Positions 17,093 through 29,262 of a DNA stretch of 39,474 bases are shown piece by piece. The notes beneath the pieces were generated by a model. The model did not search any database. It was given only the letters and a program-made list of their open reading frames with translations, and was not told where the DNA came from. The stretch comes from Kiritimatiellia bacterium (GTDB lineage Bacteria; Verrucomicrobiota; Kiritimatiellia; SLAD01), in assembly GCA_007136425.1 (NCBI GenBank), contig SLGY01000176.1, positions 1-39,474 on the forward strand, given 5' to 3'. The translations under genes and the position numbers were made by a program. The first letter of the stretch is position 1; each line of letters starts with the position of its first letter.

Positions 17093-18265
17093 TCAAACCA
17101 AGCATTGAACCGCAGCGAGACCATCGTGTCTAGCGATTTCATCGAGCGGCCCGCGCATATCCGGGGCAATGAATCGGTCGGGATCGTTCAAGTAGTTCGG
17201 ATATACGGTCAACCGTTCCTGCAAAGAGCATCCTTCCTGTTCGGTGACTTCCCGTAAGCGCGCGATCTGCGGCCAGGCGCGTTCGGGGTTGATGAAGTCC
17301 CGGGTCAACGGGGAAACGCCGCCCCAATCATTGATCCCCGCGCGCACGTACGGGCCGAACGCTTCTTCCAGATTCGGCGGCGCCTGCAGGCTGATCCCCG
17401 GATCGAGCACCAACCGCGCCGCAGCCAGCGTGCGCAACATGTCTTCCTGCGTCGGCTCCGGATGGTGCGCCATCGGAATGTCCGGTTTGGCTCGGAAATT
17501 CTGCACGATGACTTCCTGAATATGGCCGTACTTCCGGTGAATCTCGTTGATCGCCAGCAGGGACTCGATCCGTTCCTCCCACGTCTCGCCGATACCGATG
17601 AGTATCCCGGTCGTGAACGGCACGCCGAGTTTGCCCGCGCGTTCCAGCGTGCGCAGACGTTGCACCGGTACCTTGTCGGGGCAAGCGTGGTGCGGCATGC
17701 CCTTTTGGGTCAGGCGCCGGCTGACGTTCTCCACCATGATCCCCATGCTGCCGGTCACGCGTTTGAGCCGGGCCAGCTCTTCTTCGTTCATCGTGCCCGG
17801 GTTCGCGTGCGGGATCAGTCCCGTCTCGCGCACAACCCGCTCGCACATATCGCGCAGGTAATCGATGGTCCGCGTATAACCGAGTTCGGCCAGCGCGTCG
17901 CGCGCTTCCTGATACCGCAACTCGGGTTTTTCTCCGAGGCTGAACAACGCCTCCTTGCAACCGAGCGCCCGGCCCTGTCGCGCCACGGTCAACACTTCGT
18001 CCGGCGCCATATAGCGCGCGAGCGGCGAGCCGGGACGACGGACGAACGTGCAATACCCGCAATCATCGCGGCACAGGTGGGTCAGGGGGATGAAGACCTT
18101 GCGCGAATACGTAACCGTGCGCCCCCAATGCCGGTCCCGCAAGGCGGCGGCTTCGCCCATCAGCTCCTCCAGAGCCCGGCGCGCCAAGTCATCGATGAAC
18201 GGCCCGGAAGCCCGTTCTGTTACACCCTCCGCTTCATGACTTCGCCGCGGCGTTCGGGAACGCAT
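17093..18265 (-). CDS. cofG: FO synthase subunit CofG, radical SAM
   Basis: TYSRKVFIPLTHLCRDDCGYCTFVR (CxxxCxxC), ALFSLGEKPELRY, GLIPHANPGTMNEEE, PNLEEAFGPYVRAGINDWGGVSPLTRDFINPERAWP. Confidence 0.93.
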   Translation of the reverse strand: MRSRTPRRSHEAEGVTERASGPFIDDLARRALEELMGEAAALRDRHWGRTVTYSRKVFIPLTHLCRDDCGYCTFVRRPGSPLARYMAPDEVLTVARQGRALGCKEALFSLGEKPELRYQEARDALAELGYTRTIDYLRDMCERVVRETGLIPHANPGTMNEEELARLKRVTGSMGIMVENVSRRLTQKGMPHHACPDKVPVQRLRTLERAGKLGVPFTTGILIGIGETWEERIESLLAINEIHRKYGHIQEVIVQNFRAKPDIPMAHHPEPTQEDMLRTLAAARLVLDPGISLQAPPNLEEAFGPYVRAGINDWGGVSPLTRDFINPERAWPQIARLREVTEQEGCSLQERLTVYPNYLNDPDRFIAPDMRGPLDEIARHDGLAAVQCLV

Positions 18266-18267
18266 AA

Positions 18268-19263
18268 TTACTTTCTGAGCGCGGGAATGATCTCGTTGAC
18301 GTAGGTTTCCACAATCTTCTCTTCTTCTTCGCACATCAGATAGATTACAAACTGGTTCAAGCCCACGTCGCGCAACGCCTTGAGCTTCTCAATCTGCATC
18401 TCCGCCGGACCGAGCACGGAAAAGCTGTCGACCACGTCCGACGTGACCCAGTCAAGATGATCGGAATCCTTGTCGGCGTGCTGCTTGTAATCATAGCCCG
18501 TCCGTCCCTCGATGGCCTTGAGCAGATTGTCCGGGACTCCGATGGATTGGTTCTTGATCAGATCGGCAATGTGATTGCCCACCATGCCGGGAAACCAGCG
18601 ACACTGTTCGCGGCATTTATCCAGATCGTCGGATACAAAAACCGGCGCGGCAGCCATGTATTGAATCTCAGACGGATCACGCCCCACCTCTTCGGCGCCG
18701 GCCTTGACCTGGTCGATGAACCAGGTGATCAGGCTCGGCTCGGCGATCTGCAACACAATCCCATCCGCTAACGGCGCGCACGCCCGCAACACCTTTGGTC
18801 CGTAGCCGGCAAGCCACATGGGCAGTTTATAGTCCGGATTCGCCCACGGCAATTGCACGTCCACGCCGTCCACCTGTACCGTGCCGCCTTCGGCCAGGGT
18901 CTTGAGATCCTCCGAATACTGCATCATCCGCTTGATGGTCGTGGGCGGCTTGCCCATCATCCGGCGCGAACTGTCTCCGCGCCCCATGCCGCAAACCATA
19001 CGCCCTTCGGACACGATATTCAGCGTGGCAAAAATGCTGGCCGCCAGATCCACCGAGCGCGGGCCGGGATTGGTGACGAGCGGGCCGAGCTTTACACGCT
19101 TGGTGTTCGCCGCGATCACGCCCAGCATGTTAAAGGCTTCCTTCCACAATACGTGCGAATCAAAGGTCCAGACGTAGTCGAATCCGCCCTCCTCCGCCGT
19201 CTGCGCGAGACGAATGGTGCGTTGGACGTCAATATCCCCCTTGAAGCAGATGCCAAATTCCAT
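18268..19263 (-). CDS. LLM-class F420-dependent oxidoreductase
   Basis: MEFGICFKGDIDVQRTIRLAQTAEEGGFDYVWTFDSHVLWKEAFNMLGVIAANTKRVKLGPLVTNPGPRSVDLAASIFATLN; abuts cofG. Confidence 0.87.
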   Translation of the reverse strand: MEFGICFKGDIDVQRTIRLAQTAEEGGFDYVWTFDSHVLWKEAFNMLGVIAANTKRVKLGPLVTNPGPRSVDLAASIFATLNIVSEGRMVCGMGRGDSSRRMMGKPPTTIKRMMQYSEDLKTLAEGGTVQVDGVDVQLPWANPDYKLPMWLAGYGPKVLRACAPLADGIVLQIAEPSLITWFIDQVKAGAEEVGRDPSEIQYMAAAPVFVSDDLDKCREQCRWFPGMVGNHIADLIKNQSIGVPDNLLKAIEGRTGYDYKQHADKDSDHLDWVTSDVVDSFSVLGPAEMQIEKLKALRDVGLNQFVIYLMCEEEEKIVETYVNEIIPALRK

Positions 19264-19415
19264 GAGAAGACCTTCCTTGTTATTCCAATGGGTTACTCCG
19301 CTGTTCCTCCAAGCAAACCATAGAGTATCAATCAAGCCCCCCATCACGTCAATACGGAAGTCAGCGCAGGGATATGGCCCTTGTCCCGCCGCACGAGTTG
19401 TCGTATCCTTTCCGT

Positions 19416-28428: not shown

Positions 28429-28459
28429 AAAAAAAAGCGCCCCGCAAACTGCGGGGCGC
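28429..28459 (-). terminator. Intrinsic terminator (attenuator) upstream of hom
   Basis: Minus strand GCGCCCCGC-AGTTT-GCGGGGCGC followed by TTTTTTTT; perfect 9-bp stem, about 39 nt before the hom ATG. Confidence 0.9.
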
Positions 28460-28484
28460 GGTACGCAAGCCTACACCGTCCCCG

Positions 28485-28535
28485 TCACGGGTTAGCGGTT
28501 GCAATAATCGTTACGATTTCTGTCATAAAGCGCAT
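28485..28535 (-). CDS. Threonine/isoleucine leader peptide, M(RFM)TEIVTIIATANP*
   Basis: Minus strand ATG CGC TTT ATG ACA GAA ATC GTA ACG ATT ATT GCA ACC GCT AAC CCG TGA, followed by alternative stems and a terminator before hom; start at 28535 or 28526. Confidence 0.75.
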   Translation of the reverse strand: MRFMTEIVTIIATANP

Positions 28536-28623: not shown

Positions 28624-29262
28624 TCAGGACGGGGACTCGTCGATCAAACCCGCCACGGCATTGCGCATCTTTTCCACGGTAATCGGTTTCTCAAGAACAC
28701 GGGCCACTTCGCCGCTGGAAACCAGCTCCTCAGGAATCTCCCCGGCATACCCCGTAACGATCACCACCTGAATATCCGGTCGCAATTCCTTGATTTCCTT
28801 CAAGGTAGCCAATCCGTGCTGACCCGGCATACGCAGATCGAGCATGACAACCCGAACCTCCTTGCGCAAGGTCAGGATATGTAACGCTTCATAACCGGTT
28901 TGCGCCTGAAACATCTTGTACTCGTCATTCAGCGCGCGCACCATGACACTGCGACTGGTGGGATCATCATCCACCACAAGCACGCCGACATGCCCTTCCT
29001 TGCCGGATTCCGACGGGACAGGCTGATTGTTGGATTCGTCCTCCTGCGCCATATCCTGCAACGGACCGGGCACAAACAACCCGCTCTCTTGCATGAACTT
29101 AACCAAATCCGATGGCCGGATCAAATTGGTCCGACCCGGCGTCTGATAAGCACTCAATTTGCCGCGCCGCACCCATGTGTACAGGGTATTACGCGACACC
29201 CCGCACAATTTGGCGGCTTCCGGCACGGAGAGAAACAAAGGTTGAGGAATATCCGTTTTCAT
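28624..29262 (-). CDS. Response regulator with N-terminal excisionase/MerR-type HTH and C-terminal receiver domain
   Basis: LFLSVPEAAKLCGVSRNTLYTWVRRGKLSAYQTPGRTNLIRPSDLVKFM, then VLVVDDDPTSRSVM..VVMLDLRMPGQHGL..VIVTGYAG..LEKPITVEKM. Confidence 0.9.
   Translation of the reverse strand: MKTDIPQPLFLSVPEAAKLCGVSRNTLYTWVRRGKLSAYQTPGRTNLIRPSDLVKFMQESGLFVPGPLQDMAQEDESNNQPVPSESGKEGHVGVLVVDDDPTSRSVMVRALNDEYKMFQAQTGYEALHILTLRKEVRVVMLDLRMPGQHGLATLKEIKELRPDIQVVIVTGYAGEIPEELVSSGEVARVLEKPITVEKMRNAVAGLIDESPS

Follow-up and report, generated by a model that had tools for sequence, protein, structure and literature searches.

The question raised by this locus is whether the short open reading frame (ORF) and GC-rich hairpin upstream of hom, on a 39,474-nucleotide contig of a Kiritimatiellia bacterium (SLGY01000176.1, analysed over its whole length and referred to here as the window), control the genes that follow by leader-peptide attenuation. 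An original prediction, made from the letters of the sequence alone, had proposed this for a Thr/Ile operon. Comparison of the region across the class makes a ribosome-mediated (leader-peptide) transcription attenuator by far the best explanation of the hom leader, and a very probable one.

The hom operon and its leader

The leader and the operon lie on the minus strand. The operon begins with hom, encoding homoserine dehydrogenase (28390-27092; NF004976, 529 bits, cut-off 205), and continues with a gene for an apgM-superfamily protein that is a candidate homoserine kinase (27064-25886; TIGR00306, 183 bits, and TIGR02535, described as 'proposed homoserine kinase', 167 bits, both below cut-off), lysC, encoding aspartate kinase (25877-24648; NF005155, 600 bits), cimA, encoding the citramalate synthase that leads to isoleucine from pyruvate (24596-23001; TIGR00977, 751 bits, cut-off 450), and valS, encoding valyl-tRNA synthetase (22994-20283; NF004349 / TIGR00422, over cut-off). 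The intergenic gaps are 6-51 nt. The operon makes or charges Thr (hom and the kinase), Ile (cimA, by the citramalate route) and Val (valS), matching the codons of the leader. The best match of the hom protein among named records is 81% identical (Kiritimatiellae metagenome bins). Directly downstream of the operon, 17093-19347 carries cofG and a gene for an F420-dependent LLM-class oxidoreductase, which places chemistry based on coenzyme F420 in a genome of the Kiritimatiellia. Upstream of the leader lies a response-regulator gene (28624-29262), the product of which carries a receiver domain behind an excisionase-type helix-turn-helix.

The leader ORF (28535-28485) has 16 codons and encodes MRFMTEIVTIIATANP*, with a start ATG at 28535, an in-frame second ATG at 28526 and a TGA stop codon at 28487-28485. 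It contains 3 Thr, 3 Ile and 1 Val, all within codons -12 to -4 counted from the stop, and the control codons ACA GAA ATC GTA ACG ATT ATT GCA ACC occupy 28523-28497. The weak promoter-like site noted in the original prediction is present upstream, with TTGTCA (28594-28589) separated by 16 nt from TAGGGT (28572-28567; whole site 28594-28567). Region 1 (28499-28488) is the end of the ORF, where CCCG can pair with CGGG across the stop codon, and this CCCG-TGA-CGGG hairpin is present in the window and both genus mates. Region 2, CGGGGACGGT (28484-28475), is G-rich, follows the stop codon directly and is the antiterminator partner of region 3, ACCGCGCCCCG (28462-28452), which consists of the terminator's 5′ arm and 3 further nt. 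The intrinsic terminator (28459-28429) is composed of GCGCCCCGCAGTTTGCGGGGCGC (28459-28437), a GC stem of 10 pairs with a folding energy of -21.1 kcal/mol, followed by T8 (28436-28429). It sits between the leader ORF and hom, as it does in relatives, and the hom ATG (28390) lies 46 nt past the terminator stem and 95 nt past the leader stop. On a minus-strand reading, the originally predicted coordinates of the ORF, the regions and the terminator are all correct. Taken by itself, the window leader folds unremarkably relative to shuffled sequences (z = -1.9) and its antiterminator (2:3) pairing falls short of significance (p = 0.18), so that the case rests mainly on comparison with relatives.

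Conservation across Kiritimatiellia

The DNA 5′ of hom was inspected in approximately 100 genomes of the class, including two genus mates and eight family mates of the window's genome, and in approximately 60 hom loci from other groups. At least 22 genomes, spread over several families of the class, carry an equivalent leader 5′ of hom: a Thr/Ile/Val ORF and terminator are present in the window's genus (L002, L003), in its family (L006, L181) and in other families (for example L008, L111, L113, L115, L117, L118, L122, L017, L014, L126, L128, L170 and L162), with weaker cases in L141, L147, L028 and L030. Where flanks are long enough, hom in the leader-bearing genomes is followed by lysC and cimA, and often by the apgM-type gene and valS as well. 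The leader peptides all differ (for example MSVVINTVTIIVTTNP, MVQTKVTTIIVGFS, MKTTTVIAITTTSCA, MHTTITTVTVIGDS and MKTLVTITITVGGT) and the layout is constant: order and spacing of ORF, Thr/Ile/Val codons, antiterminator partner and terminator are kept across the class, as is the alternative pairing on paper. Orthologous hom upstream regions had been put forward as a check, with non-conservation counting against attenuation; the Thr/Ile/Val codons proved to be conserved in position and the peptide sequences not.

The leader was not seen in hom loci of other phyla among the approximately 60 loci of other groups, and no clear hom leader was found in other Verrucomicrobiota, where L036 (named Victivallales) is an irregular candidate. 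Within the class, no hom leader was detected in G003, G005 and G007-G010, which are close relatives, indicating that the attenuator is dispensable, and the leaderless G005 and G008 retain the same operon genes, indicating that it is not fixed. On the hom gene tree, approximately 10 changes in leader presence are needed, gains and losses counted together. One further locus (L018, genome G034) has a terminator of the same type 5′ of hom and no Thr/Ile/Val ORF, and is possibly a decayed attenuator; it was left out of the codon profile, as were L036 and L055 for their irregular geometry.

Position and frame of the control codons

In the 22 leaders, aligned by their stop codons, Thr, Ile or Val occupies codons -4 to -10 in 68, 55, 100, 86, 68, 77 and 68% of cases, respectively (22 of 22 at codon -6), and at codons -1, -2 and -3 in 5, 14 and 5%. 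The fraction of these residues over codons -12 to -4 is 0.68 in the leader frame versus 0.04 in the other frames; the genes of the operon have 0.19. At least 5 Thr/Ile/Val per 8 residues were found in 18 of the 25 collected hom-upstream regions (two being orthologues from the window's genus), and in none of the upstream ORFs at 119 other terminator-like sites on both strands of 728 kb from the window and related loci. Overall Thr/Ile/Val density is partly selected, since the leader detector ranks ORFs by their content of these residues; the positional profile with its sharp edge at codon -4, the frame contrast and the null set are outside this selection effect. Thr is the commonest control residue, and Val is also frequent. 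The predicted control by Thr and Ile is retained and extended to Val, which fits the presence of valS and cimA in the operon. The Ile codons of the 22 leaders are mostly ATT (34 ATT, 15 ATC); the window's operon genes favour ATC (69%).

Alternative pairing and promoter-like sites

Among 19 non-redundant leaders, 17 have GGG within 6 nt past the stop codon, compared with a background of 0.11. A MAFFT alignment from stop to terminator misplaced the terminator arms, and pairing was therefore assessed with shuffles instead of pair counts. Summed over 24 leaders, pairing of the segment after the stop with the 5′ arm of the terminator gave -364 kcal/mol versus -267 kcal/mol in shuffled sequences (sd 11), a z of -8.6 that overstates independence because several of the leaders come from close relatives. 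Of the predicted 1:2 / 2:3 / 3:4 logic, the 2:3 pairing and the terminator are borne out, and the 1:2 hairpin is weakly supported over the leader set (z of about -2 to -2.7; -1.9 in one test and -2.4 to -2.7 in another), the constant element being the G-run after the stop and its pairing with the 5′ arm. In three leaders of the f5 family, region 2 falls within the ORF, and these conform less closely to the common scheme.

Folding in the two states had also been proposed at the outset. When the RNA was exposed as by a ribosome at codon -6 and a polymerase that had just completed region 3, upstream sequence paired with 60% or more of the 5′ arm in 20 of 22 leaders; placing the ribosome on the stop codon instead gave a paired terminator arm in every one of the 22, complete in 18. 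The minimum-energy fold of the complete leader in the stalled state is often the 1:2 hairpin plus the terminator, so the switch would depend on co-transcriptional kinetics.

Promoter-like sites (TTGNNN, 16-17 nt, TANNNT) similar to that of the window lie upstream of 20 of the 22 leaders, compared with approximately 3% of shuffled 100-nt segments. In four of them (L014, L118, L122 and L170) the leader start codon is 8-9 nt behind the -10 hexamer, so that transcription may start barely ahead of the start codon and the leader peptide may be made from a leaderless or nearly leaderless transcript.

Proposed mechanism

From this arrangement we infer that the hom leader is translated, that ribosomes can stall on it, and that termination responds to amino-acid supply. 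RNA polymerase would start approximately 25 nt upstream of the leader ORF, with a ribosome trailing it through the Thr/Ile/Val-rich codons. A ribosome that reached the stop codon would cover region 2, so that regions 3 and 4 could pair as the terminator and the transcript would end approximately 39 nt short of hom. Scarcity of Thr, Ile or Val would stall the ribosome on codons -4 to -10 and leave region 2 open to pair with region 3 once this had been made, in which case the terminator could not form and hom, the apgM-type gene, lysC, cimA and valS would be transcribed. The ribosome footprint reaches approximately 12-15 nt ahead of the A site, so the G-run would stay exposed with a ribosome at codon -4 or earlier and be covered once the ribosome reached the stop codon, and the near-absence of Thr/Ile/Val from codons -1 to -3 is the spacing that this footprint rule demands.

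Alternative explanations

The ORF and terminator might act by another route, either as a leader RNA that binds a metabolite or protein or through a trans-acting small RNA or peptide; peTrpL of Sinorhizobium, a leader peptide reported to act in trans, is a precedent (PMC7298713). Such a sensor RNA or trans peptide would be expected to conserve sequence, and what the hom leaders conserve in RNA or peptide is limited to codon identity, G-run and terminator; conservation of codon identity and position alone speaks against it, as does the lack of any Rfam match at gathering threshold, the leader alone giving only sub-threshold matches. We consider this route very improbable. It is slightly less probable still that the hairpin does no more than terminate the response-regulator gene, with the short ORF incidental. 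That gene does run in the same direction, with its stop at 28624, 165 nt before the hairpin, and it also precedes hom in L002, L003, L006 and L008. However, the same leader layout occurs in L014, L017, L111, L113, L115, L117, L118 and L122, where the flank retrieved showed no regulator gene, and L004 has the regulator gene adjoining hom without any leader. Terminating the upstream gene also leaves no place for the Thr/Ile/Val profile, the reading frame or the intervening promoter-like site.

Least probable of all is that the leader serves mainly for translational coupling or reinitiation and that the terminator is weak in vivo. It has been suggested that leader genes increase expression via reinitiation (PMC4833913), and hom starts 95 nt past the leader stop; a 9-10 pair GC stem with T8 nevertheless separates the two frames, and the antiterminator pairing is kept across the class.

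Candidate leaders before other operons

Candidate leaders also precede further operons of the class. Seven loci have a leader before hisF-trpE, each followed by a GC-rich terminator (L334 from G002 of the window's genus, L326, L331, L323, L338, L339 and L341), with peptides in which Trp and His occur together (MNNLWWHHDEDGAVLLTEN, MKNFWWHHGEDGAIL, MVTSWHWHDEGVSAGA, MKTQHGWHPWREAGS and others). All seven carry both residues, with 14 Trp and 12 His in 115 residues (background 1.4% and 2.3%, respectively); some were found through their Trp codons, so that multiplying the chances gives no clean p value, and the co-occurrence of His was not selected for. They are candidate dual His/Trp attenuators, of which no report before hisF-trpE was found in the open-licence literature. 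A search for a terminator and ORF 5′ of hisG found none.

Leu-bearing leader ORFs with terminators lie approximately 100-140 nt before leuA in L270 (the window's own genome), L266, L263, L269, L276, L283, L284 and L288, and in several of these the antiterminator strand seems to be inside the ORF. Val/Leu/Ile-rich leader ORFs with terminators were seen before ilvB (L204, L205, L206 and L207), and in G011, G012, G022 and G030 leuA is close behind ilvB.

We tentatively entertain, at somewhat less than even probability, a class-wide set of attenuators in Kiritimatiellia with an origin separate from those of other phyla. It would comprise multi-amino-acid leaders (Thr, Ile and Val for hom-cimA-valS; His and Trp for hisF-trpE) with the antiterminator strand anchored to the leader stop, some of them at or near the first transcript base.

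Comparison with known systems

At gathering score, Rfam gave no match in the window and 14 relatives, including to Thr_leader, the T-box or any metabolite riboswitch, and the leader alone, searched with E up to 1, returned three matches, all below threshold and unrelated. Thr_leader (RF00506) is the family of enteric thrL. The hom leader shares with enteric thrL a short Thr/Ile-rich ORF, a terminator, homoserine/threonine genes and a proposed read-through upon starvation, and the original likening to proteobacterial thrL holds for the layout. It differs in its peptide, in the frequency of Val, in an operon with cimA and valS, in its distant phylum and in the absence of an Rfam match.

A survey from 2010 (PMC2965389) reported that leader-peptide systems had previously been shown only in Proteobacteria and Actinobacteria, and added Firmicutes; the later work cited here still concerns these three groups. 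No report of attenuation in Kiritimatiellae, Verrucomicrobia, Verrucomicrobiota or Lentisphaerae was found in the open-licence literature, which is not proof of absence. As far as sequence comparison can tell, the leaders suggest a known mechanism, classical attenuation, in a new group, a class of PVC bacteria. Its occurrence throughout this class speaks for a mechanism that arose repeatedly or is very old, and predicts how the supply of Thr, Ile and Val is read in organisms that are almost entirely uncultured.

The ilv/leu leaders of Proteobacteria, Actinobacteria (PMC1262725) and Firmicutes (for Staphylococcus aureus, PMC5794164) similarly combine multi-residue control with a leader ORF and terminator, whereas the hom leader has another downstream operon, other leader sequences and Thr as its commonest control residue. 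In the model of the Escherichia coli trp attenuator (PMC1183508), as proposed for the hom leader, region 2 pairs with region 3 or is covered, and a ribosome at the stop codon leads to termination; the 1:2 hairpin is firmly included in that model, in contrast to its standing here. Unlike in thrL, three codons separate the control codons of the hom leader from the stop, directly after which the antiterminator strand starts, and leaders that keep just codon identity and position across a class provide unusually clean natural data on the ribosome-footprint rule.
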